Virus record (IMG/VR): IMGVR_UViG_3300037010_001860
Coordinates: 1-47,853 of that record
Reading direction: 5' to 3' (one strand)
Source of the DNA: a virus
DNA: 47,853 nucleotides
Made by a program: the position numbers and the translations under genes. The notes under the pieces are model-generated. The model ran no database searches, was not told where the DNA came from, and saw only the letters and a program-made list of their open reading frames with translations. Each line of letters begins with the position of its first letter. The stretch's first letter is position 1. Of this stretch, positions 1 to 47,853 are shown one piece after another.

Positions 1-87
1 ACTCGCAACTTCAAGGTTGGCGCGTATGAACGCTACACGTTTATCTGGGTCAATCCTCGCGGCCTGTATGGTAGCAATGCCAGCTAA
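1..87 (+). CDS. Major capsid protein, 3' fragment (haplotype A)
   Basis: This is the last 28 codons of a major capsid gene, open from the first base and ending at TAA 85-87. The peptide is identical to the C-terminus of the complete capsid gene at 41455-42369, while the DNA differs by silent changes (for example ACT/ACC Thr and TAC/TAT Tyr). The fragment is cut by the window edge and is not a pseudogene. It marks the point where the circular genome is re-entered in a second strain version. Confidence 0.9.
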   Translation, partial: TRNFKVGAYERYTFIWVNPRGLYGSNAS

Positions 88-112
88 CCAGTTTGGATGA
101 CTTGATGCAATT

Positions 113-148
113 ATTTGCGCGGATTACTCCCTTGTAATCCGCGCAAAT
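113..148. repeat. 42-base palindrome family, copy 1
   Basis: Perfect 15-base inverted repeat: ATTTGCGCGGATTAC at 113-127, six-base loop, GTAATCCGCGCAAAT at 134-148. It lies between the capsid stop and the ATG at 169, just before the Shine-Dalgarno GAGG. The other haplotype keeps both arms intact (42395-42430) and changes only one loop base. No T-run follows, so it is not an obvious terminator. Confidence 0.9.
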
Positions 149-168
149 TTCACTTTGAGGACTGACCT

Positions 169-900
169 ATGCAATCACTGACCACCCGAAGCCCCAATGG
201 CCTGACCAATGCAGCTCCTTGGCAGGCTCTTGGCAATTTTGGCGCTCCTGATCCCACTTGGGCGCAGTTGTACGCCAATGATTTTATCACTTACACAGCG
301 ACTGACTGGATAATTACTCTTGTTGGCACTACTCCCACGAACGTGCCCACTTCGGCTGATGGCGGAGCACTACTCACTACAACCAGCACAGGTGCAACGG
401 ACTCTTCCTTCCTGCAGCTTACGACGGCCTCCTTCAAGCTCACCAGCGGCAAACGCACATTCTTCAAGTTCGCTGGCGCGCTCTCTGACGCTACTGCTTC
501 TACGTTCATTGCTGGCCTGCAGGACATCGACTCCACACCTCTCGATGCTACTGATGGCATTTGGTTCCTGAAAACGACAGCGCAAACGGGCTTTGTACTG
601 AAGTCAGTTATTGGTGGGGTTATCACTAGCGTGGCTCTCCCGGCTGCCTGCGTGGCAGCCAATGGTGTGCAATTCGAACTGGGCTTTGAAGTAGACCCGC
701 AGGGGAATATCTTTGCGTTCTTCAACCCATCAACTGGTGCGAATGCTATCGCTTCCAGTCAGTTCCGCGGCCCTGTAGCCTCTATCATGGCCCCTTCGCT
801 CACCACAGCCCTTCTCACTCCCTCCTTTGGGCTGCAGAATGGCGCGGCAGCGGCCAAAACCCTCACTACCGATTACATTGTCGCAGTGCGTGAGCGCTAA
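169..900 (+). CDS. Putative virion structural protein (243 aa)
   Basis: I do not recognise a named family. The protein is soluble, rich in Thr, Ala, Ser and Phe, has no signal peptide or membrane segment, and looks like a beta-rich concanavalin/LamG-like fold of the kind found in head decoration or fibre proteins; that fold is inference. ATG 169 follows GAGG with good spacing. It lies directly after the major capsid gene and before a small structural gene, so a head decoration or fibre role fits. The counterpart at 42451 is one residue shorter, with most substitutions clustered near residues 40-65. Confidence 0.7.
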   Translation: MQSLTTRSPNGLTNAAPWQALGNFGAPDPTWAQLYANDFITYTATDWIITLVGTTPTNVPTSADGGALLTTTSTGATDSSFLQLTTASFKLTSGKRTFFKFAGALSDATASTFIAGLQDIDSTPLDATDGIWFLKTTAQTGFVLKSVIGGVITSVALPAACVAANGVQFELGFEVDPQGNIFAFFNPSTGANAIASSQFRGPVASIMAPSLTTALLTPSFGLQNGAAAAKTLTTDYIVAVRER

Positions 901-905
901 CAGTC

Positions 906-1319
906 ATGGCTAACGCTACCTCAATTCAACTGATGCTTGACGGGCCGCGCAATGCTGTCGTCAAGCTCGAAGGGGTGCTGGATACTTCTGACGTAGCACA
1001 AACTGTTGTAGTAGACCCAGCAACTCTTTGTGGCATAGATAACACTCTTGCCGTGAAAGCTGCTGGCTTTACCATCGACCGGATTGTGTATAATGTGGAG
1101 GATACTCTAGCAGTGACACTGCTCTGGGACGCTACTACTCCAGTGAATATTGAAGAACTTACTGGTCGTGGGCACATGGAGTATAGGCGCACCGGGGGAT
1201 TACCTTCCAACGCAGGCGCAGGAAAGACTGGGAAAATCCTAATGTCTACTCAAGGGTGGGCAACAGGGGCAATCCTTTCTTACTCTGTGGTGCTGGAACT
1301 TCGCAAGACACAATCGTAG
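906..1319 (+). CDS. Putative structural protein (137 aa)
   Basis: Unrecognised protein that begins five bases after the preceding stop, with only a weak ribosome binding site, which suggests translational coupling. The sequence is compact and beta-rich, with alternating hydrophobic residues and a conserved Arg-Arg-Thr-Gly-Gly-Leu-Pro near residue 95. It has no membrane segment. The homologue at 43185-43598 has the same length and differs at a handful of residues. Position between the capsid and the gp4-like tail adaptor suggests a head or neck component; no function can be assigned from sequence. Confidence 0.65.
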   Translation: MANATSIQLMLDGPRNAVVKLEGVLDTSDVAQTVVVDPATLCGIDNTLAVKAAGFTIDRIVYNVEDTLAVTLLWDATTPVNIEELTGRGHMEYRRTGGLPSNAGAGKTGKILMSTQGWATGAILSYSVVLELRKTQS

Positions 1320-1334
1320 TAAACTGGAGGCCAT

Positions 1335-1490
1335 ATGGCAGCAAAACCAAAGCGCAAAACCCCACCGAAGGCTGCTGCGGCAGCCCCATCTGGGAAAACT
1401 GTTGTAGCATCCATGCAGGCTATGGCAAAGCAGATGAACGCCAAAGTGGCTTCCAGCTCCAAAAGCGCTTCTGGGGCCAAGGGTAAGTAA
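1335..1490 (+). CDS. Small basic Lys/Ala-rich protein (51 aa)
   Basis: ATG 1335 follows a strong GGAGG at 1326-1330, and the TAA at 1488-1490 overlaps the ATG of the gp4-like gene (TAATG). The product is strongly basic with a disordered, histone-tail-like composition: Lys/Arg/Pro at the N-terminus, a short amphipathic Met/Gln/Lys helix in the middle and a Ser/Lys tail. The second haplotype keeps the same length, frame, Shine-Dalgarno and overlap (43614-43769) with conservative substitutions, which argues that it is translated. A DNA-associated virion protein is possible but unproven. Confidence 0.7.
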   Translation: MAAKPKRKTPPKAAAAAPSGKTVVASMQAMAKQMNAKVASSSKSASGAKGK

Positions 1491-2188
1491 TGGCTACCAG
1501 CGGTACTTACGGTTTCACAATGACCAGGGATGATATCATCGCAGGGGCCTTGCGGCTTGTTGGGGCATATGACCCCAGCGAAAGCATCCCTCAAGAGGAC
1601 ATTACAACTTGTGCGGTGGCCCTGAATTTGCTGGTGAAGGACTTGGCACGGAATGAACTCCCCCTGTGGTGCGTGGTGGATGTGCCAGTTCCACTCCTCA
1701 CTGGAGTTGTGGCGTATGACCTCTCCGCAGCCAGTGGTACTACCCTCCCATTGAGGGTTCTGGACTGCTACATACGGGACGCTGTAGGGAATGACACTCA
1801 GCTTACTGTTAGCTCCCGATACGACTACGACAGGCTGGGGAATAAGCTTCAACCAGGTGTGCCTAACCAGGTCTACTACGACCCGCAGCTTGGCGCTGGG
1901 ATGTTGTATGTGTATAATGTCCCTGCTGACGATATGCACACCTTGCACGTAGTGATTCAGCGGCAACTCCAAGACTTCAATCTTGCTACTGACACTCCCG
2001 ACTTCCCGCAGGAGGCTTTTCGACTGCTCAAGTGGTGTCTGGCAGATGAGGTAGCACTGGAATATCAGACTCCAGCAGGCATGAGGCAGGAGATTGCTGC
2101 ACGGGCCGCCTACCTGCGGGAGAACTATGCAGCATCGTTGCAAGAGCAGGTGTCAGTACGGTTTACTCCTGGTATGAGGGTTCGCTGA
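1490..2188 (+). CDS. P22 gp4-like tail accessory factor / head-to-tail adaptor (232 aa)
   Basis: The N-terminal pattern (ALRLVGAYDPSE, then a conserved ALNLLVKDLA helix and LPLW) is typical of the gp4 family of podovirus adaptors. These assemble under the portal after DNA packaging and close the head while forming the tail platform. Length is in the family range. Its start overlaps the stop of the 51-residue gene, and it is followed by a cargo gene and the ejection proteins, the usual place for this function. The copy at 43769-44467 has the same length and is nearly identical. Confidence 0.8.
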   Translation: MATSGTYGFTMTRDDIIAGALRLVGAYDPSESIPQEDITTCAVALNLLVKDLARNELPLWCVVDVPVPLLTGVVAYDLSAASGTTLPLRVLDCYIRDAVGNDTQLTVSSRYDYDRLGNKLQPGVPNQVYYDPQLGAGMLYVYNVPADDMHTLHVVIQRQLQDFNLATDTPDFPQEAFRLLKWCLADEVALEYQTPAGMRQEIAARAAYLRENYAASLQEQVSVRFTPGMRVR

Positions 2189-2190
2189 GA

Positions 2191-2697
2191 ATGATCGAGT
2201 TTATGCTCATCGCAGCCCCTAGAAGCGGAACAACGTGGGCAGCGAATTGGCTTACAACTGACACGACTCTGTGCCTGCATGATCCACTGTTCACGCATCA
2301 CTACAGAGATTTGGATTCCCTTACCAGCAAGAAGCGTTTGGGCGTCTCCTGCACTGGGCTATACAATTTCCCGGGGTGGGTAAATGCGCACCCAGCAAAA
2401 AAGGTAGTTCTTCACCGACCCCCTACTGAAGTGAATTCCTCACTGAAACGACTCGGACTTCCTGCGCTACCATTGTCCAGTTTCAACGCTTTGGCCAAGC
2501 TCGACGGCTTTCATTGTGATTGGCTGGAATTGTTTGAAAGTCCTGATCGTATTTGTAATGCTTTAGGCCTGGGCGAAGTCGATTTTGAACGTCATGCACA
2601 ACTTTGCCAAATGCTAATTCAACCTCAATTTGCGGCACTCAGTGTTAATTCAGCCGTAGTCCAGCAACTTGTTGCTGAAGTTGGGGGGACAGTATGA
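2191..2697 (+). CDS. Sulfotransferase-like P-loop protein (168 aa), haplotype A cargo
   Basis: Residues 9-16 (APRSGTTW) form the 5'-phosphosulfate-binding P-loop of PAPS-dependent sulfotransferases. Residues 71-88 (KVVLHRPPTEVNSSLKRL) resemble the second PAPS-binding motif with its Arg and Ser. At 168 residues it is shorter than typical cellular enzymes, so it may be a minimal fold; the acceptor is unknown. It starts two bases after the gp4-like stop. The same position in the other haplotype (44469) holds an unrelated cupin-like gene, so this is an exchangeable cargo site rather than a core virion gene. Confidence 0.75.
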   Translation: MIEFMLIAAPRSGTTWAANWLTTDTTLCLHDPLFTHHYRDLDSLTSKKRLGVSCTGLYNFPGWVNAHPAKKVVLHRPPTEVNSSLKRLGLPALPLSSFNALAKLDGFHCDWLELFESPDRICNALGLGEVDFERHAQLCQMLIQPQFAALSVNSAVVQQLVAEVGGTV

Positions 2698-2756
2698 AAA
2701 ACGTACCATCACCCATTATGCTGACTGCTCACATTTCTCTTACTGGAGGACTTTAA
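2694..2756 (+). CDS. Possible 20-residue leader ORF
   Basis: The ATG overlaps the sulfotransferase stop as ATGA, and the TAA ends one base before the ATG at 2758. It covers the short gap and includes the Shine-Dalgarno GGAGG of the next gene, so it could carry ribosomes across by coupling. There is no homologue in the other haplotype, where the gap is two bases. Evidence is positional only. Confidence 0.25.
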   Translation: MKNVPSPIMLTAHISLTGGL

Positions 2757-2757
2757 T

Positions 2758-3444
2758 ATGTTCGGTGCTATTCTTGGCGCTGTTGCAGCGCCGATTGTTA
2801 GTTCCATGCTTGCACCTGACTCCCCTAGTTCTGGGGCCGGTTCTGCAGCGGCAGCCGCCGACCCATTCGCGAGTCAGCGTGCTCAGTACCAGCCGCAGCT
2901 TGCCTCTTTGATGAACTCAGGTGATCCCTCCGCTGCGATGCTGCAACCTTGGTACAATTTCCGAACTTCTGATCCAAGTTACGCTTGGCGACTGCAACAA
3001 GGAATGGACACCCTCCAACGAGGATTGGCGCAGACAGGCCAAATTGCCAGTGGGAATGAAATGGCCCAACTGCAGCAATATGGCCAAGGGCAAGCCTCGC
3101 AGGAGTTTGCTAATGAGTTTAACCGTCAGCAATCTGCCTATGAGAATCAGTATTCCCGGTTGGCGCAGTTGTCAGGAGCCCTTTCCGGGAGTCCTGGCAT
3201 AGCCGGGCAGCTGCAGGCGAATCAAAACATGCAGCAACAGCAAGCTGCAAGTGCGCTGGGGAATGCCATTGGAGGTGCTGCTGGGAATTGGCTTGGCAAC
3301 TATAGGAACTCAAGCGACAATAGCATCACTCCAGCCTCTGGGCAAGCCTTCCCTGTAACTCCGGCCGGCTACCAGTTCAATTCTCAACCTGTGCTCTCCG
3401 GTGGCACTGATCTCAATGCCTTCGCTGGTTACACCTTCGACTGA
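2758..3444 (+). CDS. DNA ejection / internal virion protein, gp7-like (228 aa, haplotype A)
   Basis: The N-terminus is a hydrophobic glycine/alanine segment (residues 1-18), followed by a low-complexity linker, a conserved ASQRAQYQPQLASLM region, a Gln/Ala-rich helical body and a second glycine-zipper-like segment (residues 170-185). This arrangement fits the small ejection proteins that form a membrane channel during DNA entry. It has a clear GGAGG and is first of three genes in the order expected for the P22 gp7/gp20/gp16-type set. The haplotype B counterpart (45023-46321) has 432 residues because of a large internal insertion. Confidence 0.7.
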   Translation: MFGAILGAVAAPIVSSMLAPDSPSSGAGSAAAAADPFASQRAQYQPQLASLMNSGDPSAAMLQPWYNFRTSDPSYAWRLQQGMDTLQRGLAQTGQIASGNEMAQLQQYGQGQASQEFANEFNRQQSAYENQYSRLAQLSGALSGSPGIAGQLQANQNMQQQQAASALGNAIGGAAGNWLGNYRNSSDNSITPASGQAFPVTPAGYQFNSQPVLSGGTDLNAFAGYTFD

Positions 3445-3459
3445 TAGGGAGTTCTGACA

Positions 3460-4890
3460 ATGGGTGGATTCTTCCATAATCTTGGCCTGCAGGCCGGGTA
3501 TGATATGATCTACGGGCAACAGCAAGCGCGTGCTCAGGCGGAGACTGAGCTGAAGCAGCAACAAGTGCTCACGGCGAAGGCGGAGCTTGCACAGCAGGCA
3601 CAACTTGCTGATGTACGGTCGAAAGTCTCTCAGGTAGCCCAAGCGGAACTCGCTGGTATTAAGGATGACGTGGAAGCTCCAGTGCAAAAGGCAGACTTTG
3701 CCATGAAGGCTGCTGCAAGGCTGGAAGCTGCGGGGGATTTGTCAGGTGCTGCCTCATGGCGACAGCAGGCGGAGGCTTACACAAAGCAGGGGAAAGAGGC
3801 CAGGGAAGCTGCAGTGCAAAAGCAGGCGCAAACCACTGAAGATCTTGCACAGGCCGCTCTTGCGTTCAAAACTGCCCCATCCGCTGAAAACTACGGACAA
3901 CTCTCTGCAGCTATTGCCCGCAGTGGGGGGGATATTTCCAAGATGCCGCTGCCCGGTGACCCTGCACTGCCAGCGTTTGTAGAGGCGCAAACACGCAGAG
4001 GCATGAAAGCCTCTGACCAGCTTAAGCTGCTGGCGACGGAAGAGGATAAGAGGTTGCAACGTGAGGAAGCTGCAAGAAGCCATCGTGAGAATGAGGCCAT
4101 ACGACTGGAGACTGCTCGCACAAATGCCGCTTTGCGCCGGGAAGGGCTGGAACTTCATAAGATGACTAAGGGGCTTTTACCTGGTAGCAGCCCAGCATCA
4201 TCTGAATCCATCCAGGATCAAATTGCAATGTACCGCAAGGGAATTCCCCGAGCACAAATTGTCTCTGGCTATTCCGCAGCGGCTCAACAGCAATGGAATG
4301 CTGTAACCCGTGGGGCTTTTGCTCAGATCATGGAAGAGAACCCAACACTCACACGAAACGAAGCTGCACAGCTCCTTGTAGCTGGGCAACAGGGATTCAA
4401 AGCAACCTCAAATGCCCTCGGGCAGGTTACAAAAGACTTAGCAGCAATTCGTCCGTATAAGGAGATGCTGGATCAGAACGCTAACATTGCGATTTCCCTT
4501 TCCAAGCAAGCCATCAAAGGCAACAGTGCCTTGGCGAATAAACCAATCAACTGGGTCAGGCAGAACATGGGGGATAATCCTGACACGAGTGAATACTTGG
4601 CTCAGATTGCTATTGTACAAACAGAAGCCGCACGGGTTCTGAGCAATCCTAGACTAGTTGGGCAGTTATCAGACTCTGCTCGACATGAAATGCAAGAACT
4701 TGTGAACGGGAATTTGCCACTGGAGTCTACTGAGCGTGTGCTGAATCGGATCAAGCAAGATGGTACAAACAGAATTGCTGCGATGGAACGGGAACAGAAA
4801 GCTCTGCTGAAAGGTGAGAGTGCTGCAAGTCCGACGACAGCTCCAACTCCCGCAGCGGCTCCCTCAACCCTCCCCGCTGGTTGGCACTAA
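3460..4890 (+). CDS. DNA ejection protein, long coiled coil (476 aa, haplotype A)
   Basis: An almost entirely helical, Gln/Ala/Glu-rich protein with heptad-like stretches from about residue 25 to 240 and a short Pro/Ala tail ending in LPAGWH. No enzymatic motif is visible. It is the second gene of the ejection trio and starts after GGGAG. Compared with 46337-47755, the N-terminal half (to about residue 230) is highly conserved. The following region is largely replaced, and the last few residues are identical again. I infer an internal virion channel or scaffold-like ejection protein. Confidence 0.65.
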   Translation: MGGFFHNLGLQAGYDMIYGQQQARAQAETELKQQQVLTAKAELAQQAQLADVRSKVSQVAQAELAGIKDDVEAPVQKADFAMKAAARLEAAGDLSGAASWRQQAEAYTKQGKEAREAAVQKQAQTTEDLAQAALAFKTAPSAENYGQLSAAIARSGGDISKMPLPGDPALPAFVEAQTRRGMKASDQLKLLATEEDKRLQREEAARSHRENEAIRLETARTNAALRREGLELHKMTKGLLPGSSPASSESIQDQIAMYRKGIPRAQIVSGYSAAAQQQWNAVTRGAFAQIMEENPTLTRNEAAQLLVAGQQGFKATSNALGQVTKDLAAIRPYKEMLDQNANIAISLSKQAIKGNSALANKPINWVRQNMGDNPDTSEYLAQIAIVQTEAARVLSNPRLVGQLSDSARHEMQELVNGNLPLESTERVLNRIKQDGTNRIAAMEREQKALLKGESAASPTTAPTPAAAPSTLPAGWH

Positions 4891-4988
4891 GGAACTCCCA
4901 TGCCTGAATATTCTTTCACTAGCCCAGAAGGTAAGGCTTACAGTATCACTGGCCCTGAAGGCAGCACCCGCGAGCAAGCCTTTCAGCT
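4862..4988. repeat. 127-base exact repeat shared with the right end of the window
   Basis: Bases 4862-4988 are identical to 47727-47853. The base before differs (C at 4861, T at 47726), and the right copy ends with the window. The repeat covers the end of the coiled-coil ejection gene, the intergenic gap and the first codons of the next ejection gene. Confidence 0.95.
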
Positions 4989-6846: not shown

Positions 6847-6941
6847 GGGCAGTTTGCGCAAGTAGGGGTTGCACACTGCTTTCGCCAGCATTACAATTGC
6901 ATTGGGCGGTGAGGGCGGGGAATACTGAGAAGGAATTAAAG

Positions 6942-6983
6942 GTTATTGGCGCGGATTACAACAGAGTAATCCCCACGAATAAC
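6942..6983. repeat. 42-base palindrome family, copy 2
   Basis: Outer stem GTTATT (6942-6947) with AATAAC (6978-6983), inner stem GGATTAC/GTAATCC (6953-6959, 6966-6972), six-base loop. It lies in the 235-base gap between the last ejection gene and the ATP-grasp gene; the rest of that gap is pyrimidine-rich with no other feature I can support. Confidence 0.9.
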
Positions 6984-7081
6984 TCTCCCCTCCCCCTCAG
7001 CAGTGCGCGGCAGAAAGGCTCCTACCATCCCAGCGCCTCTGCCCCCTTCCCTTCTCCCTTCTTCTGCGCTACCCTCTCCCT

Positions 7082-8401
7082 ATGAAAATCCTACTGATCG
7101 ACGCAATGGCAGCCTTCCTCGACTTCGCACTCCGGGCAGAAGCCCAGGGGCATGAAGTCCGGCTCTGGCTCCCCAAGGAAAAAGACGGCTCGCACAACAC
7201 TGTCGGCGATGGGCTGGTGACAAAAGTCCCTGACTGGCGGGGGAGTATGAATTGGGCTGATCTCATTGTACTCAGCGACAACGCACGGTTCCTGGGTGAG
7301 CTCGAACCCTGGCGCCGGAAGGGTTATCCGATATTCGGGCCAGGGAAGGAAGGCGCGAGCTGGGAACTCGAACGCGGCACTGGGCAACAGGTACTGGAAG
7401 CCGCTGGTATTGCCTGCATCCCCTCTCATGTGTTCTCAGGCTACAAGGAAGCCATTGAGTTTGTAACTGGAACTGGCAAACGCTATGTTTCCAAGCCCAC
7501 AGGCGACGCGGACAAGGCCCTCAGCTACGTTTCCAAAGGCCCAGCGGATATGCTGTTCATGCTGGACTACTGGAACAGGACGCAGAAGGTGAAAGTCCCG
7601 TTCTTGCTGCAGGAGTTCATCCCAGGAATTGAGATGGCGGTCGGGGGCTGGGTCGGGCGGGATGGCTTTCTGGGGATGTTTCTGGAGAACTTCGAGTTCA
7701 AGAAGCTCATGCCAGGGGACGTAGGGGTAAATACTGGGGAAATGGGCACGGTGATGAAATACTGCCCAATCGAGGAAAGTAAGCTGGCGCAGGAAATGCT
7801 CTTGCCGCTGGAAGCTCAGCTCATCCGTCAGGGCTACACCGGCTACATCGACGTAGCAGTCATTATTGACAAGAAAGGCAAGCCCTGGCCCCTGGAATTC
7901 ACCACCCGCCCTGGCTGGCCCCTGATGCAAATTCAGCAAATCCTGCATCCAGATGTGGCAGGATGGATGTTGGATGCAGTCAACGGCAAGGATACATTTA
8001 GGCCCTCCGGGCAGATTGCGGCTGGCTTCGTGGTGGCTCACGCTGACTTTCCTTTCAACAAACTCCCCCGTGCTACCGTGAGCGGATTCCCGGTCTGGGG
8101 TATCACTGACAGCAACCGCTATTTCATTCACCCCAGTGAGATGAAACTTGGCATGGCACCAGACTTCTCCTCAGGCTCTCTCAAGCACGTTCCTTCGCTG
8201 GTGAGTGCAGGGCAGTATCTCCTTACAGTCAGCGGAAGGGGTTGGAGCGTGAGGGAGGCTGTTGCGGGGGCCTTTTCCAGGGTGAAGCAATTGGAGGTGC
8301 CAAATTCTCCAGTGTATCGGATTGATATTGGGGAAAGGCTGGAGAAGCAGTTGCCAGAATTGCAAGAGTTTGGATATGCGGTTTCGTGGGAGTGGCAATG
8401 A
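7082..8401 (+). CDS. PurD-like ATP-grasp ligase (439 aa)
   Basis: The layout matches phosphoribosylamine-glycine ligase. There is an N-terminal Rossmann-like domain (MKILLID, then ADLIVL near 59-64), PIFGP (83-87) as in PurD, an ATP-grasp domain with SKP near 137-139 and QEFIPGIE (177-184), a glycine-rich NTGEMGTV (217-224) like the PurD TGGMG loop, and LEFTTRPGWP (271-280) at the metal/ATP-binding position of PurD's LEFNxRxGDPE. ATP-grasp enzymes join a carboxylate to an amine or thiol using ATP. Whether the phage enzyme makes a purine precursor or modifies DNA or protein cannot be read. The ATG follows CCCTCTCCCT with no Shine-Dalgarno, and the gene opens a separate cassette between ejection and tail fibre genes. 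Confidence 0.8.
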   Translation: MKILLIDAMAAFLDFALRAEAQGHEVRLWLPKEKDGSHNTVGDGLVTKVPDWRGSMNWADLIVLSDNARFLGELEPWRRKGYPIFGPGKEGASWELERGTGQQVLEAAGIACIPSHVFSGYKEAIEFVTGTGKRYVSKPTGDADKALSYVSKGPADMLFMLDYWNRTQKVKVPFLLQEFIPGIEMAVGGWVGRDGFLGMFLENFEFKKLMPGDVGVNTGEMGTVMKYCPIEESKLAQEMLLPLEAQLIRQGYTGYIDVAVIIDKKGKPWPLEFTTRPGWPLMQIQQILHPDVAGWMLDAVNGKDTFRPSGQIAAGFVVAHADFPFNKLPRATVSGFPVWGITDSNRYFIHPSEMKLGMAPDFSSGSLKHVPSLVSAGQYLLTVSGRGWSVREAVAGAFSRVKQLEVPNSPVYRIDIGERLEKQLPELQEFGYAVSWEWQ

Positions 8402-8571
8402 TGAGGAAAGGGGGGAAGGAAGCGCGGAAAGGGGCCTTACGGGGGCCGGTGTACGGAATAGGCGCTTTGGTATGGATCGGGCTCGCCATCGCAAGGATGA
8501 CCTCTTATAGCTGGAGAGTTACTTCCCCCTATTACAGCCCTGTAATCCGCGCGAGTAACCCTTCCCTATGA
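8398..8571 (+). CDS. Small membrane protein carrying a palindrome-encoded tail (57 aa)
   Basis: The ATG at 8398 overlaps the ligase stop as ATGA, and the TGA at 8569-8571 overlaps the next ATG in the same way, so it is coupled on both sides. After a basic Lys/Arg/Gly start there is one hydrophobic segment (about residues 18-36). Residues 41-54 are encoded exactly by palindrome copy 3. Alternative start ATG at 8401. No family recognised; evidence is overlap, frame and the membrane segment. Confidence 0.5.
   Translation: MMRKGGKEARKGALRGPVYGIGALVWIGLAIARMTSYSWRVTSPYYSPVIRASNPSL
8518..8559. repeat. 42-base palindrome family, copy 3 (in frame in a coding sequence)
   Basis: Outer stem GTTACT/AGTAAC (8518-8523, 8554-8559) and inner stem ATTACA/TGTAAT (8531-8536, 8541-8546). 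The middle arm is inverted relative to most copies (CCCCC on the left). It occupies 14 whole codons of the 57-residue ORF and ends eight bases before the ATG at 8568. Confidence 0.9.
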
Positions 8572-32825: not shown

Positions 32826-32827
32826 GA

Positions 32828-38483: not shown

Positions 38484-38505
38484 CTAGCCAACGGAGTTAT
38501 ATCCT

Positions 38506-39185: not shown

Positions 39186-39191
39186 CAAGGG

Positions 39192-39233
39192 GTTTCTCAC
39201 GCGGATTACAACAGAGTAATCCCCACAAGAAAC
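39192..39233. repeat. 42-base palindrome family, copy 12
   Basis: Outer stem GTTTCT/AGAAAC (39192-39197, 39228-39233), inner stem GGATTAC/GTAATCC (39203-39209, 39216-39222), loop AACAGA identical to copy 2. Intergenic, 30 bases before the scaffold start. Confidence 0.9.
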
Positions 39234-39263
39234 TCAAATTATACTGAATAAGAGGATACAATC

Positions 39264-40181: not shown

Positions 40182-40245
40182 GTCCAACAAGCAATAGTCA
40201 CCGCAGGCAGCGTCTGCATCCACATAACACAAGCAGGAGATTCAC

Positions 40246-40764
40246 ATGGCAGAAGTAACAGGGACAGTGCAAAGGGGAGTTGGAGTAGAAAGTGCCGCAA
40301 CGCGGGATGCAGCGCGTGTGCAGGCTGCCCGTGAGCGTGCTGGAAACTTTGGCGGCCCCCAACTCAAACTCGCAGTCAACGGCTCTATAGCAGGTCATCA
40401 CTTGTTCTGGGTCAATGACGACGAAGGTTCGCTGGAAACCCACTTGTACCAGGGATTCAGTTTTGTGGAGCCGGATGAAGTTGGCATGGCGTCCCTGGGA
40501 ATTGTAGCCGACAGTGATCTTTCTAATCGGCTGAGCCGCTATGTGGGCAAACGTGCTGATGGCAGTCCGATGCGGGCGTATCTGCTGAAATGCCCAGATG
40601 ATCTCTGGGAACTTCGGGAAACCTCTAGGCACAAGCAAGCAGATGCATGGGAAGCTGACATCCTCCGTGGGCATAAAACTCCTGGAATGGGGCGTTATAC
40701 TCCGAAGGGCACCAGTACCTCCATCAATCCTCATTATGAGCAGCAGGTTGGCGACGACCAGTAA
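40246..40764 (+). CDS. Head-region protein, unknown (172 aa)
   Basis: GGAG precedes the ATG. Residues 45-125 form a compact domain (N-G-S-I-A-G-H-H-L-F-W-V-N-D-D-E-G-S, then L-S-R-Y-V-G-K-R-A-D-G-S-P). The N- and C-terminal parts are disordered (ending in H-Y-E-Q-Q-V). I know similar proteins between scaffold and capsid in other podoviruses; the role is unassigned, perhaps capsid decoration or a scaffold partner. Confidence 0.55.
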   Translation: MAEVTGTVQRGVGVESAATRDAARVQAARERAGNFGGPQLKLAVNGSIAGHHLFWVNDDEGSLETHLYQGFSFVEPDEVGMASLGIVADSDLSNRLSRYVGKRADGSPMRAYLLKCPDDLWELRETSRHKQADAWEADILRGHKTPGMGRYTPKGTSTSINPHYEQQVGDDQ

Positions 40765-40796
40765 GCTCTACCAATCACACTTCAGGAGATTCTTAA

Positions 40797-41405
40797 ATGG
40801 CAAACGTAAACAGCCCTCGCGGCTTTGTTCCAGTCCGTTACCTCGATGGGTCGGCATGGAATGGTGCTACGAATATATACTACATTCCGGCCACTGACAA
40901 TACGAACCAGTACAACGTTGGTGACCCTGTTAAATCTGCGGCAGGCGCTGACGCAAATGGTATCTCGCAGGTGACGAAGGCGCTCGGTACCGACACTGTT
41001 CGCGGTGTTATTGTCGGGGTGCTGGCATCGACTCCGAATGGCCAGAGTCTGGTGGGTACGACTTTGGACTTGGCTACGCAGAACATCCCAGTTGCAAAAG
41101 CCCGCGACTACTATGTGCTGGTAGCTGATGACTCTTCCATCGTGTTTGAACTCCAGGACGATGGCCTGAACACACTCACCGCCACCAGTGCCAACAAGAA
41201 CGCCAGCTTTACTGTGGCGAATCCTACGGCGCCTCAGCAAAACTCCGCAAGTGTGCTGAATACCGCCAGCGTAGCTACTACCAGTACGTTGAACTTGAAA
41301 CTGTTTGGCCTAGCCCAGAAGCCTAATAACGCCTTTGGCGCATATGCTGTCTGGAATGTTGTGTTCAACATGCATGAACTGCGTGGTGCCGTTGCTGGCG
41401 TGTAA
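40797..41405 (+). CDS. Head decoration/stabilisation-type protein (202 aa)
   Basis: The start MANVNSPRGFVPVRYLDG and a beta-rich body with G-D-P-V-K-S and R-G-V-I-V-G-V-L are typical of small structural proteins encoded next to the major capsid gene in many short-tailed phages. No enzymatic motif is present. GGAG precedes the ATG. I infer capsid stabilisation on the outer surface; a minor capsid role is also possible. Confidence 0.65.
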   Translation: MANVNSPRGFVPVRYLDGSAWNGATNIYYIPATDNTNQYNVGDPVKSAAGADANGISQVTKALGTDTVRGVIVGVLASTPNGQSLVGTTLDLATQNIPVAKARDYYVLVADDSSIVFELQDDGLNTLTATSANKNASFTVANPTAPQQNSASVLNTASVATTSTLNLKLFGLAQKPNNAFGAYAVWNVVFNMHELRGAVAGV

Positions 41406-41454
41406 TCGCCTCCCAGCGCGCTTCTGCCTCTCAATTCATTAAAAGGAAATCAAA

Positions 41455-42369
41455 ATGGCTGGAATTATCAACACGGGTAGCTACCCGAAGGCACTCTGGG
41501 AAGGCGTAAAAGCCTGGTGGGACAGTGCTGCTGCCGGCACACCTCAGTATGCTCCGCTGCTGTTCAAGAAGGAAACCAGTACCAAGAACTACGAAGAATA
41601 TGTGCAGTCTGTCGGCCTCGGTCTGGCGACTGTCAAGCCAGAAGGCGCCCCAATCTCCTTCGATGGGATGCAGCAAGGCTTTGTGGTTCGCGGCACTAAC
41701 GTGGCATTTGGCCTGGGCATCATCGTCACTTACGAGGAACTGCAGGATAACCTCTATGTGAAGCTGACCAAAGGCCGTGTTGAGGCCCTGCGCCGTGCAT
41801 TTGCAGAGACCAAAAACATTAATGCGACCAACATCTTCAATCGCGCGTTCAATGCCAGTTACAAAGGCGGCGATGGTGTGAGCTTGCTGAACACCGCTCA
41901 CCCGAATTTCTCCTCTGGTACTTGGGCTAACAAGTTGTCTGTGGACTCGCAATTGTCGCAGGCGGCCATCGAGGACATGCTGATCCTCATGATGCAGGCC
42001 AAGAATGACCGTGGATACATCGAGCCGCTGATGGGGGATAAACTGGTTGTTCATCCGAACAACTACTTCAACGCTGAACGCATCCTCGGTACTCCGAAGC
42101 AGGTTGGCAGCAATAACAACGACATCAACCCCATCAACACCCAGGGGCTGTTGCGCGGTGGTATTGTCAGCAACCCGTACCTCACCGGCACTGGCCCGTG
42201 GTTCATCACCACCAACGCGGCGGAAGGCCTGATCCATCAGGAACGTGAAGCTCTCAGCATCTGGGAAGATAACGATGCTGACACCCGCAACTTCAAGGTT
42301 GGCGCGTATGAACGCTATACGTTTATCTGGGTCAATCCTCGCGGCCTGTATGGCAGCAATGCCAGCTAA
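41455..42369 (+). CDS. Major capsid protein (304 aa)
   Basis: Sequence features such as Y-E-E-Y-V-Q-S-V-G-L-G, V-K-P-E-G-A-P-I-S-F-D, Q-Q-G-F-V-V-R-G-T-N and E-E-L-Q-D-N-L-Y recall the Mu gpT-type/HK97-fold capsid group. The size fits and the position is right for the main shell protein. AAGGAA precedes the ATG. The last 28 codons are repeated at 1-87 with silent differences only. Palindrome copy 13 follows at 26 bases. Confidence 0.82.
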   Translation: MAGIINTGSYPKALWEGVKAWWDSAAAGTPQYAPLLFKKETSTKNYEEYVQSVGLGLATVKPEGAPISFDGMQQGFVVRGTNVAFGLGIIVTYEELQDNLYVKLTKGRVEALRRAFAETKNINATNIFNRAFNASYKGGDGVSLLNTAHPNFSSGTWANKLSVDSQLSQAAIEDMLILMMQAKNDRGYIEPLMGDKLVVHPNNYFNAERILGTPKQVGSNNNDINPINTQGLLRGGIVSNPYLTGTGPWFITTNAAEGLIHQEREALSIWEDNDADTRNFKVGAYERYTFIWVNPRGLYGSNAS

Positions 42370-42394
42370 CCAGTTTGGATGACTTGATGCAATT

Positions 42395-42430
42395 ATTTGC
42401 GCGGATTACTCCATTGTAATCCGCGCAAAT
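42395..42430. repeat. 42-base palindrome family, copy 13 (haplotype B equivalent of copy 1)
   Basis: Same arms as copy 1; only one loop base differs. Not an independent site. Confidence 0.9.
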
Positions 42431-42450
42431 TTCACCTTGAGGACTGACCT

Positions 42451-43179
42451 ATGCAATCACTGACCACCCGAAGCCCCAATGGCCTGACCAATGCAGCTCC
42501 TTGGCAGGCCCTTGGCAATTTTGGCGCTCCTGACCCCACTTGGGCGCAGCTGTATGCCAATGATTTTATCACTTACGCAGCGGCTGACTGGATAATCACT
42601 CTTGTCGGCGCTCCCACAAATGCGCTTACTTCGGCTGATGGTGGAGCACTGCTCACCACAACCAGCACTGGCGCGACTGACTCCTCCTTCCTGCAGCTCA
42701 CGACGGCCTCCTTCAAGCTCACCAGTGGCAAACGCACATTCTTCAAGTTCGCTGGCGCACTCTCTGACGCTACTGCTTCTACGTTCATTGCCGGCCTGCA
42801 GGACATCGACTCCACTCCTCTCGATGCTACTGATGGCATTTGGTTTCTGAAAACGGCGGCGCAAACGGGCTTTGTGTTGAAGTCAGTTGTGGGCGGGGTT
42901 ATCACTAGCGTGGCTCTCCCAGCTTCCTGCGTGGCAGTCAATAATGTGCAATTCGAACTGGGCTTTGAAGTAGACCCGCAGGGGAATATCTTTGCGTTCT
43001 TCAACCCATCGACTGGCGCAAATGCTATCGCTTCCGGCCAGTTTCGCGGCCCTGTAGCCTCTATCATGGCCCCTTCCCTCACCACAGCCCTTCTCACTCC
43101 CTCCTTTGGGCTGCAGAATGGTGCGGCAGCGGCCAAAACCCTCACTACCGACTACATTGTCGCAGTGCGTGAGCGCTAA
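42451..43179 (+). CDS. Putative virion structural protein, haplotype B (242 aa)
   Basis: Counterpart of 169-900, one codon shorter (Thr-Pro region near residue 55). Differences are mostly conservative and clustered around residues 43-65, while the C-terminal 40 residues are identical. The clustering suggests a surface-exposed loop under selection. Start and ribosome binding site are as in the other copy. Confidence 0.7.
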   Translation: MQSLTTRSPNGLTNAAPWQALGNFGAPDPTWAQLYANDFITYAAADWIITLVGAPTNALTSADGGALLTTTSTGATDSSFLQLTTASFKLTSGKRTFFKFAGALSDATASTFIAGLQDIDSTPLDATDGIWFLKTAAQTGFVLKSVVGGVITSVALPASCVAVNNVQFELGFEVDPQGNIFAFFNPSTGANAIASGQFRGPVASIMAPSLTTALLTPSFGLQNGAAAAKTLTTDYIVAVRER

Positions 43180-43184
43180 CAGTC

Positions 43185-43598
43185 ATGGCTAACGCTACCT
43201 CAATTCAACTGATGCTTGATGGGCCGCGCAATGCTGTCATCAAGCTCGAAGGGGTGCTGGATACTTCTGACGTAGCACAAACTGTTGTGGTAGACCCAGC
43301 AACTCTTTGCGGCATAGATAACACTCTTACCGTGAAAGCTGCTGGCTTTACCATCGACCGGATTGTGTATAACGTGGAGGATACTCTAGCAGTGCTACTG
43401 TTCTGGGACGCTACGGTTCCAGTGAGTATTGAAGAACTTACTGGTCGTGGGCATATGGAGTATAGGCGCACTGGAGGATTACCCTCCAACGCAGGTGCAG
43501 GGAAGACTGGGAAAATCCTAATGGCTACCCAAGGGTGGACAACAGGGGCAATCCTTTCCTACTCTGTGGTGCTGGAACTTCACAAGACGCAATCGTAG
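43185..43598 (+). CDS. Putative structural protein, haplotype B (137 aa)
   Basis: Counterpart of 906-1319, of identical length with about ten substitutions, several of them conservative (Val/Ile, Thr/Val). Same five-base gap to the gene before and the same weak ribosome binding site. Confidence 0.65.
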   Translation: MANATSIQLMLDGPRNAVIKLEGVLDTSDVAQTVVVDPATLCGIDNTLTVKAAGFTIDRIVYNVEDTLAVLLFWDATVPVSIEELTGRGHMEYRRTGGLPSNAGAGKTGKILMATQGWTTGAILSYSVVLELHKTQS

Positions 43599-43613
43599 TA
43601 AACTGGAGGCCAT

Positions 43614-43769
43614 ATGGCAGCAAAACCGAAGCACAAAACCCCATCGAAGACTGCTGTGGCAGCTCCATCGGGGAAAACTGTCGTAGCATCCATGCAGGCT
43701 ATGGCAAAGCAGATGAACGCCAAGGTGGCTTCCAGCTCCAAAAGCTCCTCTGGGGCCAAGGGTAAGTAA
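43614..43769 (+). CDS. Small basic Lys/Ala-rich protein, haplotype B (51 aa)
   Basis: Counterpart of 1335-1490 with the same length, GGAGG and TAATG overlap. It differs at a few positions in the N-terminal basic region (for example Arg to His, Pro to Ser) and once in the tail; the central helix is unchanged. Confidence 0.7.
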   Translation: MAAKPKHKTPSKTAVAAPSGKTVVASMQAMAKQMNAKVASSSKSSSGAKGK

Positions 43770-44467
43770 TGGCTACCAGCGGCACTTACGGTTTCACAAT
43801 GACCAGGGATGATGTTATCGCAGGGGCCTTGCGGCTTGTCGGAGCGTATGATCCCAGCGAAAGCATCCCTCAAGAGGACATTACGACTTGTGCGGTGGCC
43901 CTGAACCTGCTGGTGAAGGACTTAGCACGGAATGAACTCCCACTGTGGTGCGTGGTGGATGTGCCAGTTCCGCTTCTTGCCGGAGTCATCGCGTATGACC
44001 TCTCCGCAGCTAGTGGTACTACCCTCCCATTGAGGGTTCTGGACTGCTACATACGGGATGCTGTAGGGAATGATACTCAGCTTACTATTAGCTCCCGGTA
44101 TGACTACGACAGACTGGGAAATAAACTCCAACCAGGCGTGCCTAACCAGGTCTACTACGACCCGCAACTTGGGGCAGGGATGTTATATGTGTATAATGCC
44201 CCCGCTGACAGTACGCACACCTTGCACGTAGTGATTCAGCGGCAACTCCAAGACTTCAATCTTGCTACTGACACTCCAGACTTCCCTCAAGAAGCTTTCC
44301 GACTGCTCAAGTGGTGCCTGGCAGATGAGGTAGCACTGGAGTACCAGACCCCGGCAAGTATGCGGCAGGAAATTGCGGCACGAGCGCTGGCTTTGCGGGA
44401 GAACTACGCGGCATCGCTGCAGGAGCAGGTGTCAGTGAGGTTTACTCCTGGTATGAGGGTTCGCTGA
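43769..44467 (+). CDS. P22 gp4-like tail accessory factor, haplotype B (232 aa)
   Basis: Counterpart of 1490-2188. Same length, few substitutions, all motifs kept. Its stop is the left edge of the exchanged cargo segment: the sequence diverges completely within five bases after it. Confidence 0.8.
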   Translation: MATSGTYGFTMTRDDVIAGALRLVGAYDPSESIPQEDITTCAVALNLLVKDLARNELPLWCVVDVPVPLLAGVIAYDLSAASGTTLPLRVLDCYIRDAVGNDTQLTISSRYDYDRLGNKLQPGVPNQVYYDPQLGAGMLYVYNAPADSTHTLHVVIQRQLQDFNLATDTPDFPQEAFRLLKWCLADEVALEYQTPASMRQEIAARALALRENYAASLQEQVSVRFTPGMRVR

Positions 44468-44468
44468 A

Positions 44469-45020
44469 ATGTTGCCAGTTTTGTCAGCTCCAGCTCCAGC
44501 AACTTCCTACTTCTTGCGGTTGGTGGCTGAAAAAACTGGAGTAGACCTAACTCAATCCCCCTCAGAGGAACTCATCCGCTCCCTGATCGTTGACTTTGAG
44601 ACTCAGATGACTCAGGCTGTTGTCGATGGTCAGCTGGTGGATGACTCTCCTACCTATCCACTGTTCCATCATTTTACTGATGGGGCATATGCAAGGGAGA
44701 TACACATCCCAGCAGGACACGTAGTAGTAGGAAAAATTCACAGACATAACCACTTCCACTTCCTCTCGAAGGGCAGGGTGACTGTTCTCACAGAAAAAGG
44801 TGGGTTGGAGGAATATACTGCTGGAGGAATTATGATCTCTCCTGCTGGTGTTAAACGCCTCCTTGTGACACATGAGGACACAGTGTGGACGGTGATACAC
44901 GTGACCAAGGAAACTGATTTGGACAAAATTGAAGAAGCTGTAATCGCAAAAGATTTTGAAGAGCTGGGGCTTATAGCAGCTCCATTACAACTCTTACTAA
45001 CTAACACTGAAGAGGTATAA
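44469..45020 (+). CDS. Cupin-like protein (183 aa), haplotype B cargo
   Basis: Residues 76-135 are a single cupin domain: R-E-I-H-I-P-A-G-H-V-V-V-G-K, a metal-binding-like cluster H-R-H-N-H-F-H (91-97), L-S-K-G-R-V-T-V, and a second strand I-M-I-S-P-A-G-V-K-R-L-L-V-T-H-E-D-T-V-W-T-V. Cupin proteins of this kind are found in other phages; the substrate is unknown. It replaces the sulfotransferase-like gene at the same position in haplotype A. It starts one base after the gp4-like stop and ends two bases before the ejection gene. Confidence 0.75.
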   Translation: MLPVLSAPAPATSYFLRLVAEKTGVDLTQSPSEELIRSLIVDFETQMTQAVVDGQLVDDSPTYPLFHHFTDGAYAREIHIPAGHVVVGKIHRHNHFHFLSKGRVTVLTEKGGLEEYTAGGIMISPAGVKRLLVTHEDTVWTVIHVTKETDLDKIEEAVIAKDFEELGLIAAPLQLLLTNTEEV

Positions 45021-45022
45021 TT

Positions 45023-46321
45023 ATGGCTTGGGCTGCTATTGGAGGTGCTGTTGCGGGAGCAGCTGTATCTGGTATATTTTCCTCTGGTTCTTCTGGTTCC
45101 TCTGGTTCAGGCTCGGGCTCTGCGCCAGCGATGGCAGACCCATTCGCAAGCCAGCGTGCTCAATATCAGCCGCAACTTGCCGCTCTGATGAACACAGGTG
45201 ACCCTTCCGCTGCCATGCTGCAGCCTGGGTATCATTTTCAAAATCCTGCAGGCCCGTCCTGGTGGGAGCAGTCCCAGCCCGGCTACCGGGCTCCAGTGGC
45301 AAGTCAGCCGCAACCACAACCGCAACCGCAAGCTCCGCAGCAGCCGCAGCCATCTCCGCAGCAACAGAAGCAACCTGCCGACTTGCAGGAATTGCTGCAA
45401 ATTCAACATGATCAGCGAGGGATGGGCCCAGATATGGCTGGGTTTAACCCGAATTTCCTCATTAACTGGTTACAGTCTCAGGGGATTACTCCCACAGCTT
45501 CCACAGCCCCCACGACAAGTCAACAGCAACCTGTAGCTACCCATCAAACTCCAGTGGCAGGCCAGCCACAACAGACACAACCTGCTACACGTTCACCGTT
45601 TCAGAATGAAGTTGGCCCGCTCCCGCTCTCACAGTCTCTGCCTGACTCCCCCAGTGGGCAGTCTACGACTAGCTACCCCAGTGGGCAGTCTGTGGCTGGC
45701 GGCAACACCCAAGCTATGCTACAACCTGGGTATAACTTCCAAACCTCCGATCCAAGTTATGCCTGGCGATTGCAGCAAGGGCTGAGTACTCTTCAGCGAG
45801 GGCTGGCACAAACAGGTCAGACTGCCAGTGGAAATGAAATGGCTCAGTTGCAACAATACGGCCAGGGGATGGCTTCACAAGAATTTTCCAACGAGTTCAA
45901 TCGACAGCACTCCTCCCAGGCTCTCACTGATCAGGAGGCTGCAACTACCTTTAACCAACATCAAGCTGCGCAGGCGCTGACAGATCAAGAATTTTCCAAT
46001 CTGTTTAACATGCAGCAAACTGAATACGCGAATCAGTTTTCCAGATTGGCTCAACTATCTGGAGCAAATGTTGGGAGCCCTGGCGCCGCTGGGCAATTGC
46101 AGGCAATGCAAAATATGCAGCAACAGCAAGCAGCAAGTGCTGTTGGAAATGCTGTTGGAAATGCTGCTGGGAATTGGCTTGGTAACTACATGGGCGACAA
46201 CAGCACAACTCCTGCTTCTGGGCCTGCTTTCCCGGTAACCCAAGCTGGCTATCAATTCAATTCCCAGCCAATTCTTTCTGGTGGGACTGACCTCAATGCC
46301 TTCGCTGGTTATAATTTTTAA
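45023..46321 (+). CDS. DNA ejection / internal virion protein, gp7-like, haplotype B (432 aa)
   Basis: Counterpart of 2758-3444 but with a different N-terminal hydrophobic Gly/Ala segment and Ser/Gly linker. An insertion of about 167 residues, Pro/Gln-rich, is bounded by two copies of A-M-L-Q-P-G-Y-x-F-Q (45212-45241 and 45713-45742). A second addition carries a duplicated Q-A-L-T-D-Q-E motif (about residues 300-325). The C-terminal third is conserved, including the glycine-zipper-like segment and the last 30 residues. Role as for the haplotype A gene. Confidence 0.68.
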   Translation: MAWAAIGGAVAGAAVSGIFSSGSSGSSGSGSGSAPAMADPFASQRAQYQPQLAALMNTGDPSAAMLQPGYHFQNPAGPSWWEQSQPGYRAPVASQPQPQPQPQAPQQPQPSPQQQKQPADLQELLQIQHDQRGMGPDMAGFNPNFLINWLQSQGITPTASTAPTTSQQQPVATHQTPVAGQPQQTQPATRSPFQNEVGPLPLSQSLPDSPSGQSTTSYPSGQSVAGGNTQAMLQPGYNFQTSDPSYAWRLQQGLSTLQRGLAQTGQTASGNEMAQLQQYGQGMASQEFSNEFNRQHSSQALTDQEAATTFNQHQAAQALTDQEFSNLFNMQQTEYANQFSRLAQLSGANVGSPGAAGQLQAMQNMQQQQAASAVGNAVGNAAGNWLGNYMGDNSTTPASGPAFPVTQAGYQFNSQPILSGGTDLNAFAGYNF

Positions 46322-46336
46322 TAGGGGGTTCAGACA

Positions 46337-47755
46337 ATGGGCGGATTCTTCCAAAATCTCGGTCTGCAAGCCGGGTATAATATGATCTATGGGCAGCAGC
46401 AAGCGCAAACCCAAGCGGATACGGAGCTGAAGCAACAGCAAGTGGTCGCGGCAAAGGCGCAGCTTGCACAGCAGGCGCAACTCACTGACGTGCAAGCGAA
46501 AGTTGGCCAGTTGGCGCAGATGGAACTCGCTGGTATTAAGGATGACGTGGAAGCTCCAGTGCAAAAGGCAGACTTTGCCATGAAGGCTGCTACAAAGCTG
46601 GCAGCCGCAGGGGACTTGCAAGGTGCTTCCGCATGGCGACAGCAGGCGGAAGCCTACACGAAGCAAGGGAAAGAGGTCAGAGAAGAGGCCGTACAAAAGC
46701 AAACAAAAGCCACGGAAGACCTTTCGCAGGCGGCTCTTGCCTTCAAAACTACCCCATCTGCGCAGAACTATGCCCAACTCTCCACAGCTCTTGCTCGCAG
46801 TGGAGAGGATATTTCCAAGATGCCACCGCCCGGTGACCCAGCGCTGCTCCCGTTTGTAAATACACAGATAAACAAGGGCATGAAAGTCTCAGAACAACTT
46901 AAGTTCGCCGCTGGAGAAGCTGATAAAAAAGACCAGCGAGATGAAACTGCAAGAAGTCATCGTGAGAACGAAGCCATACGGCTGGAGACTGCTCGTAACA
47001 ATGCTGCTTTGCGCCGGGAAAGGCTGGAACTTCATAAGATGACTATGGGGCTTTTAACTGGTGGCGCGACCTCTAAGACTGAGAAAGACTCTGCAGCAGC
47101 TATGGTAGCCCAAGGTGCGCCGCTGACGCAGGTTGTTCCCGGCTTTGGCCGCTCTGCAGTTATGAAGCGCATAGAAGCCCGGAATGATGGGATTGCGCAG
47201 ATTATGAAGGAGACCGGGATGAACGCTGCTGAAGCCGGAACGGAACTAGCCAATCGCCAGATTAACTATCGTGCAAAATCTTCCAGTTCTACCGCAGGTG
47301 CTCGTACAGCCGCAACTGTCGTAGCTAATCTGGAGATTGCCTCGAATGAAGCAAAGCAGATGATTCAAGTCGCTCGTGATCTGGCCTCAAAAGTAAATGT
47401 TGGGCAGTTCAAATCCCTCAATGCCATCGAGAATGCTGTGAAGCGTGGGACTGGTGATGCCAATATTGTGAAACTTGATACTGCACTGAATTCATTAGTA
47501 AACTCTTATGCCAGGGCTATTAACCCTAAAGGCATCCCAACAGTAAGTGATAAGGAGCATGCTCGTGCAACTGTGGACGCGGCACTTTCCAGTGGCCAAT
47601 TGAGTGGAATTTTTGATGTAATGGACACGGAAATGACAGTCGCGCTTGGGGCAGCGAAGCATGTATCAACTGGTGCGACTACACAGGAGCATTCAGCTCC
47701 GACTCCTGCTGCCGCTTCTGCAACTTCCTCAACCCTCCCCGCTGGTTGGCACTAA
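46337..47755 (+). CDS. DNA ejection protein, long coiled coil, haplotype B (472 aa)
   Basis: Counterpart of 3460-4890. Residues 1-230 are strongly conserved; one stretch, G-I-K-D-D-V-E-A-P-V-Q-K-A-D-F-A-M-K-A-A, is identical. After the L-E-L-H-K-M-T motif the sequence is unrelated to haplotype A over about 215 residues, and only the terminal S-T-L-P-A-G-W-H is again identical. The divergent part is the domain most likely to contact the host envelope or partner proteins; this is inference. Confidence 0.65.
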   Translation: MGGFFQNLGLQAGYNMIYGQQQAQTQADTELKQQQVVAAKAQLAQQAQLTDVQAKVGQLAQMELAGIKDDVEAPVQKADFAMKAATKLAAAGDLQGASAWRQQAEAYTKQGKEVREEAVQKQTKATEDLSQAALAFKTTPSAQNYAQLSTALARSGEDISKMPPPGDPALLPFVNTQINKGMKVSEQLKFAAGEADKKDQRDETARSHRENEAIRLETARNNAALRRERLELHKMTMGLLTGGATSKTEKDSAAAMVAQGAPLTQVVPGFGRSAVMKRIEARNDGIAQIMKETGMNAAEAGTELANRQINYRAKSSSSTAGARTAATVVANLEIASNEAKQMIQVARDLASKVNVGQFKSLNAIENAVKRGTGDANIVKLDTALNSLVNSYARAINPKGIPTVSDKEHARATVDAALSSGQLSGIFDVMDTEMTVALGAAKHVSTGATTQEHSAPTPAAASATSSTLPAGWH

Positions 47756-47764
47756 GGAACTCCC

Positions 47765-47853
47765 ATGCCTGAATATTCTTTCACTAGCCCAGAAGGTAAG
47801 GCTTACAGTATCACTGGCCCTGAAGGCAGCACCCGCGAGCAAGCCTTTCAGCT
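47765..47853 (+). CDS. Large ejection protein, 5' fragment (haplotype B)
   Basis: The first 29 codons of the gp16-like gene, identical in DNA to 4900-4988 and cut by the window end. Confidence 0.9.
   Translation, partial: MPEYSFTSPEGKAYSITGPEGSTREQAFQ

Follow-up and report, generated by a model that had tools for sequence, protein, structure and literature searches.

The DNA analysed here, referred to below as the window, is the whole of one virus record (IMG/VR record IMGVR_UViG_3300037010_001860; 47,853 bases), and the feature under study is a family of 42-bp near-palindromes dispersed along it. Judged by its repeats, the window appears to represent a circle of about 42.3 kb: positions 1-2202 match 42283-44481 at 92.5 % identity, and, followed to their full extent, 1-4988 and 42283-47853 are overlapping contig ends that align in three pieces (92.5, 79 and 99 % identity) and represent a divergent haplotype, so that sequence of two or more strains is combined in the record. 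The early module lies on the minus strand and includes genes for DNA polymerase, a methyltransferase with a ParB domain, a Sak4-like annealing protein and a Dda-like helicase, and the late module, on the plus strand, includes terminase, portal and capsid genes; the major capsid gene ends at 42369, which is position 87 in the coordinates of the circle. Gene calls throughout were made with our own simple gene caller, so that the placement of a single site can be wrong.

The 42-bp palindromes of the window

Thirteen places had been listed for the palindrome in a preliminary description of this DNA, and all of them hold the element, as 12 distinct copies and one duplicate in the end overlap (Table 1). 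Each copy consists of two 18-bp arms around a 6-bp centre; nine of the 13 starts given earlier were in register, but four were off by 2-4 bases, and in-register positions are used here. When the window was searched for GGATTAC-N6-GTAATCC with up to three mismatches, 14 matches were found against 1.04 expected, a number reached by none of 100 shuffles; 13 of the 14 are members of the family, and the match at 27787 is a non-member. A scan for palindromes only gave six centres in the window, all of them members, and none in each of two shuffles. Copy-to-copy identity is low, and at least 13 of 18 pairs are possible in eight of the 12 distinct copies. The statement that most copies lie in leaders or gaps stands for 10 of the 12, which are outside genes, but one copy is inside the DNA polymerase gene and one (24004-24045) overlaps a doubtful 44-codon open reading frame in a gap that is otherwise empty.

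Two of the gaps concerned adjoin gene 7082-8401, one on either side; this late-module gene encodes a protein of ATP-grasp type (GARS_A-like) that is 58-69 % identical in eight more distant relatives. Runs of 12 (33550-33561) and 11 (33702-33712) G residues occur in the divergent region, the second immediately preceding the site at 33718-33759.

Table 1. Palindromic sites, genes that locate them and candidate binding proteins in the window
Feature	Position	Strand	Context or assignment
Site 1	110-151		gap between major capsid gene and gene 169-900
Site 2	6942-6983		gap 6847-7081, ahead of ATP-grasp-like gene 7082-8401
Site 3	8518-8559		gap following gene 7082-8401
Site 4	17960-18001		inside DNA polymerase gene, a location found in 5 of 14 genomes
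Site 5	24004-24045		between minus-strand genes 23667-23972 and 24104-24430
Site 6	27691-27732		gap between minus-strand genes 27065-27583 and 27871-28440; gap occupied in 10 of 14 genomes
Site 7	29852-29893		early module
Site 8	30122-30163		early module, 228 bp past site 7
Site 9	31417-31458		early module
Site 10	31758-31799		most degenerate of the copies, scoring 30.8 against a threshold of 6.6; 60 bp past 3' end of gene 31860-32402 (-)
Site 11	33718-33759		region where early (-) and late (+) modules diverge; 138 bp ahead of gene 33898-34260
Site 12	39192-39233		gap between GroES-like gene and gene 39264-40181
Site 1 copy in end overlap	42392-42433		arms identical, one centre base differs
DNA polymerase gene	16154-18547	-	early module
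GroES-like gene	38748-39185		site 12 lies in the gap after this gene
ParB-domain methyltransferase	18592-19971	-	candidate binder: ParB N-terminal (CTPase-fold) domain and N6/N4 DNA methyltransferase; Pfam ParB_N and N6_N4_Mtase in 12 of 12 alignment members
Helix-turn-helix (HTH)-like protein	33898-34260	+	candidate binder or small terminase; weak matches only (HTH_13, E 0.094; terminase small subunit, E 0.066)
Paralogue of 27871-28440	31860-32402	-	candidate binder, no assigned function
Small proteins	26635-26829 and 27065-27583		candidate binders

Geometry, spelling and placement of the sites in related phages

Relatives were gathered from IMG/VR through terminase, polymerase and pattern searches, and a half-site model was grown for each genome from that genome's own palindromes. 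By this model the 12 core-type genomes have 12-16 sites apiece, G031 has 13 and G043 has six, and a de novo search added MW202489, G033, G035, G040, G041 and, later, G032, bringing the total, after the exclusions given below, to 230 sites in 20 related records, 6-16 in each, all with the 18-6-18 geometry and with differing consensus. Several of the records form close pairs (G000/G003, G018/G019, G024/G025 and G033/G035); the near-duplicates G003, G019 and G035 were left out of the pooled tests (gene distance, spelling, segment and polarity) and kept in the 14-genome arm test and the placement count. The window's duplicate copy was excluded from the arm test onwards, the sites of G038 were re-registered by hand, and the hits excluded were one overlapping hit in MW202489, two in G041, one in G031 (21667) and one in G035 (40000, a repeat of 477); G028 may have been counted once too often, as its sites 130 and 45462, at the two ends of the contig, have identical arms.

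Geometry is constant and spelling is not. Examples are GTTAcTtGCGCGGATTAC in the window, ATTAaTnCCtCACATTAC in G028 and aTTtcACACCCGCATTAT in G027, the spelling being lineage-specific but common to the sites of one genome. In a set of 133 oriented sites (15 genomes), both arms have A at position 17 without exception, and T occupies position 16 of each arm in 132 sites. For most conserved genes, the distance between motifs increases with that between proteins. The scheme is kept in six records in which no window head genes were detected with hidden Markov models (HMMs), namely MW202489, G031, G032, G033, G035 and G041; in MW202489 a site at 10278 directly follows the annotated major virion structural protein gene (9273-10256). 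No convincing dyad set was found in G037, G042, PP438425, MW202796 or OK172329, which is weak evidence of absence, odd-length palindromes having been tried for the first three of these alone; G037 has a four-member palindrome candidate of different sequence.

Placement was counted for 222 sites in 19 of the 20 records (G032, without gene calls at that stage, was left out). Most of these sites (162) lie between co-directional genes, with 20 between divergent and 13 between convergent genes, nine at contig ends and only 18 inside genes, yet the mean coding fraction is 0.87. For 86 of the 162 tandem sites the following start codon is no more than 40 bp away (the median for the 162 is 33 bp), and 88 start no more than 30 bp after the stop codon of the preceding gene; where the gap is short, a promoter must overlap either the dyad or the preceding gene. 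The gap that holds site 12 (gap 50/51) is occupied in 12 of 12 core genomes, as is that of site 1 (gap 54/0), in 11 of them directly and in the window through its copy at the contig end.

This sharing of positions bears on the earlier suggestion of a mobile palindrome spread by trans-acting help, considered here as an element resembling repetitive extragenic palindromic sequences or miniature inverted-repeat transposable elements (REP/MITE-like). Dispersal of the copies and their low mutual identity would fit such an origin. It had been noted that no transposase is present, and none was seen among the window proteins scanned, which were part of the total. A comparison of presence and absence between relatives showed that the 12 sites of G003, at 91.5 % DNA identity, occupy gene intervals identical to those of the window and follow each other in unchanged order, a site-by-site comparison that concerns this one close pair. 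Flanking sequence at five sites has an ungapped identity of 0.15-0.50 between the two on at least one side, counting both sides. Gene gaps are also held in common across the core genomes, and all sites of one genome share their spelling. A mobile element was therefore rejected, and we regard this origin as extremely improbable.

Arm pairing and embedded promoters

The outer stem of the palindrome had been described as changing in pairs, and this was taken to indicate that folding is selected. RNA hairpins acting in mRNA leaders, in processing, stability or attenuation, would be in keeping with the eight window copies that could fold as RNA with at least 13 of 18 pairs, and with the many sites that precede start codons. 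Selection for folding would make the two arms of one copy match better than arms taken from different copies. Over 14 genomes, however, the arms of a site showed no better pairing than was obtained by re-dealing the arms within each genome, with 2339 pairs observed against 2405 expected (z -3.6); 11 genomes were below expectation, the window (z 0.52) and G003 (z 0.63) were slightly above it, and the sole significant excess was that of G043 with its six sites (p=0.025). As for the outer stem itself, the paired changes do exist in the window: the outer six bases are identical in both arms in five of the 12 window copies but not in the other seven. Five exceeds the 1.5 expected on re-dealing (p=0.004), an excess that could also stem from template-switch correction of quasi-palindromes, which is a mutational mechanism. 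The segment test was made on the window alone and on a pool of 17 genomes with 198 sites, and in the pool the outer six are fully matched in 23 sites against 19.5 expected, which is no excess, and the inner six pair less than expected (z -4.4).

A covariance check on the 12 window copies gave a covariation score that was reached by 90 of 500 shuffles and a percentage paired that was reached by 161 of 500. Between the window and G003, 11 of the 12 sites show 10 left-arm and nine right-arm substitutions, none at matching positions, although this is a weak test because chance predicts few among only 19 changes; the degenerate site at 31758 has 12 changes, with three pairs at matching positions. 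An Rfam scan of the window gave no match at gathering scores, and sites occur between convergent genes and inside genes as well as in leaders. On the arm re-dealing, covariation, segment and G003 comparisons, hairpin selection was rejected as a general explanation, the window outer stem and G043 excepted, and a role as RNA hairpins seems to us quite improbable. In most genomes the arms of one site match no better than those of different sites, and on balance they behave like a pair of half-sites, each conforming to a single consensus, which would be expected of a protein-bound DNA dyad.

Sites of some relatives also contain a near-consensus sigma-70 promoter. With a promoter defined as TTGACA (at least 5/6), N17 and TATAAT (at least 5/6), G032, G033, G035 and G041 have 12 occurrences genome-wide, eight of which fall in family sites in a single register, as TTGAC(A/G)-N17-(T/C/G)ATAAT, each facing a start codon 28-136 bp off. 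G033 and G035 are near-duplicates, so that at most six of the eight are distinct, and the other 25 sites of these four records are without a near-consensus promoter. Five of the six sites of G043 read TATAAT in the half turned towards the closest gene, the sixth lying between convergent genes.

We propose that the sites are probably a genome-wide set of promoter-operators for a dimeric DNA-binding regulator, most likely encoded by the phage. This proposal draws on features of the sequence, namely dyad geometry, placement in gaps, shared gene intervals, lineage-specific spelling, the behaviour of the arms and the embedded promoters, and of the three options offered in the preliminary description (regulator site, RNA processing signal, mobile palindrome) it is the first that gained support, but not the other two. 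Each site would be dyad-symmetric DNA, with two 18-bp half-sites around the 6-bp centre, to which the dimeric regulator would bind; bound there, it would switch the genes just downstream, by repression or by activation. From these data we infer that one dimeric, phage-encoded regulator serves all copies and that the window copies, too, would contain a promoter.

Several observations weigh against the promoter-operator proposal. None of the 12 window sites holds a promoter as defined above, and the two such places in the window are both outside sites. In the 12 core-type genomes, promoter-like scores have no clear forward bias, the top offsets scoring 14, 12, 9 and 9 forward and 14, 12, 6 and 5 in reverse with a sigma-70 frequency table. 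With respect to transcription the arms have little polarity (z 2.05, p 0.03; 15 genomes); of the genomes taken one by one, G018 and the closely related G019 alone reach p<0.005. The sites inside genes and between convergent genes must be counted here, as must the 76 of the 162 tandem sites that end more than 40 bp from the start codon, together with the above-chance matching in the outer stems of the window and in the arms of G043. Finally, comparison of motif distance with protein distance singled out no binder (20 genes, r 0.34-0.76), and the 35/41 paralogues are not distributed in such a way as to set site-bearing records apart from the others.

The failure of the last two tests to single out a phage binder would favour operators or promoters for a host regulator or an alternative sigma factor, the host then setting the spelling of each lineage, and the hexamer in the -10 register of the core genomes, which is mostly (A/T)GTAAT and not TATAAT, points the same way. 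A megablast search of named phages with window positions 30000-42300 gave no match, and a capsid profile search of genome contigs gave no relative. A polymerase profile matched two contigs of metagenome-assembled genomes (42 and 33 %), from Planctomycetota and Dokdonella, which possibly represent hosts or else misbinned phages; the dyad set was not found in the parts of these contigs that were fetched. Against this explanation, the records G003 and G018 come from one metagenome (3300035180) and differ in spelling, so that control by the host would need different hosts there. We consider such control improbable.

Candidate regulators and comparable systems

The ParB-domain methyltransferase of the early module shares 45-71 % identity across 11 aligned relatives. 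Its residues 4-147 align to Spo0J/Noc/ParB chains, the alignments ending by residue 147, and Pfam lists no ParB HTH domain for it at E<=0.1. Fusions of ParB domains to N6/N4 methyltransferases are described as frequent in phages (PMC12704722). The protein offers a further explanation of the sites, as places of genome organization or long-range silencing at which a clamp-type protein, such as this one, would load, spread or loop, with control of transcription secondary, by analogy with KorB on plasmid RK2. In keeping with this, HMMs detected the methyltransferase in 19 of the 20 site-bearing records (the contig of the exception, G040, ends inside the polymerase gene), ParB_N was present in every member scanned, the N-terminal region aligns to Spo0J/Noc, and about a dozen dispersed dyads over both modules would suit such a system. 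Against it, the methyltransferase is also found in G037, G042 and PP438425, which have no convincing dyad set, its central region is fairly conserved although the sites change, the element is longer than parS, and the promoters embedded in four relatives point to transcription. We therefore see clamp-loading sites as a rather unlikely explanation. A low probability is likewise given to the more specific idea that the methyltransferase is a KorB-like global regulator, which, as a clamp gated by nucleotide, would load at as many as 16 dyads over the two modules, silencing or timing whole transcription units, its specificity and its sites being rewritten together in each lineage. When regions of the protein were compared with motif distance, no binder signal was seen.

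There are other candidates for the regulator of the proposed promoter-operators. The HTH-like proteins 33898-34260 and 34257-34817 are paralogues by blastp and stand in tandem ahead of the large terminase gene in 12 core genomes; both are candidates, and one of them may be the small terminase. The paralogues 27871-28440 and 31860-32402 are candidates too. A structural model of 27871-28440 from a 13-row alignment (predicted local distance difference test score 79.9, predicted template modelling score 0.46) had no PDB match and one unnamed viral match at E<=0.001, and sequence searches of solved structures with alignments A4, A5, A6 and A7 gave nothing convincing. The C-termini of three conserved early proteins (23459-23674, 27871-28440 and 31860-32402) resemble one another in the peptide ALL.EL(L/V), which may be a docking tail common to all three.

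The nearest described elements are the extended start-associated sequences (ESAS) of cluster K mycobacteriophages, which are described as imperfect inverted repeats of 15-17 bp with a spacer, located in gaps upstream of genes, found at the same gene families in relatives, having a subcluster-specific consensus and so far without an assigned regulator; in Adephagia they are 46-47 bp long and contain SigA-like -35 and -10 hexamers 17-18 bp apart (PMC3203893, PMC11373665). The present elements resemble them in being imperfect inverted repeats with a short spacer (18-bp arms, 6-bp centre), in that many sites, not all, lie in gaps upstream of start codons, in recurring at shared gene positions in relatives and in having a consensus that varies between lineages. 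They differ in having a constant spacer of 6 bp, in being present in structural as well as early modules and in that lineages differ at most half-site positions, whereas the differences described between K1 and K2/K3 concern three positions. SigA-like hexamers lie inside ESAS, whereas comparable promoters are found here in eight sites of four relatives and in none of the 12 window sites. A search of the window for the 13-bp start-associated sequence (SAS) gave three matches with two mismatches against 1.32 expected, none of them beside a site. Because there is no SAS and a promoter is present in some relatives only, we do not class the elements as ESAS.

The 17-bp palindromes of cluster O mycobacteriophages are likewise dispersed dyads, many of them intergenic and without an assigned function, in phages with a ParB-like domain protein (PMC4351075). 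Intergenic repeats of halovirus HF2 are reported to have positions conserved in the genus and promoter activity in nine of nine cloned repeats (PMC8707807). They share with the present sites their intergenic location and conserved positions, as described there, and differ in that HF2 is an archaeal virus. Stoperators of cluster A mycobacteriophages are also regulator sites spread over a phage genome; they are asymmetric 13-bp sites oriented with transcription, whereas the present sites are 42-bp dyads of weak polarity. On plasmid RK2, one global repressor of the ParB family, KorB, binds dispersed dyads (PMC11790492). Dispersed dyads are the likeness to that account, and the ParB-domain protein is here a candidate binder only. 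Operators of KorB are much shorter than 42 bp. In the open-access literature, the scope of the search (subscription papers and preprints lying outside it), we recognized no paper describing the present sites.

Apart from the palindromes, gene 11791-12807 holds a 46-nt repeat four times at 12086-12386, with spacings of 51 or 102 nt, and also encodes a Peptidase_S74 chaperone domain.

If the sites are promoter-operators, the 20 related phage records form a natural series of complete sets, each with 6-16 regulatory sites that have been respelled together, many sites keeping their gene boundaries despite the respelling, even in records without detected window head genes. The findings would extend a little-understood type of element, that of the ESAS, beyond the mycobacteriophages, and one could test directly how a regulator and all of its target sites evolve together.

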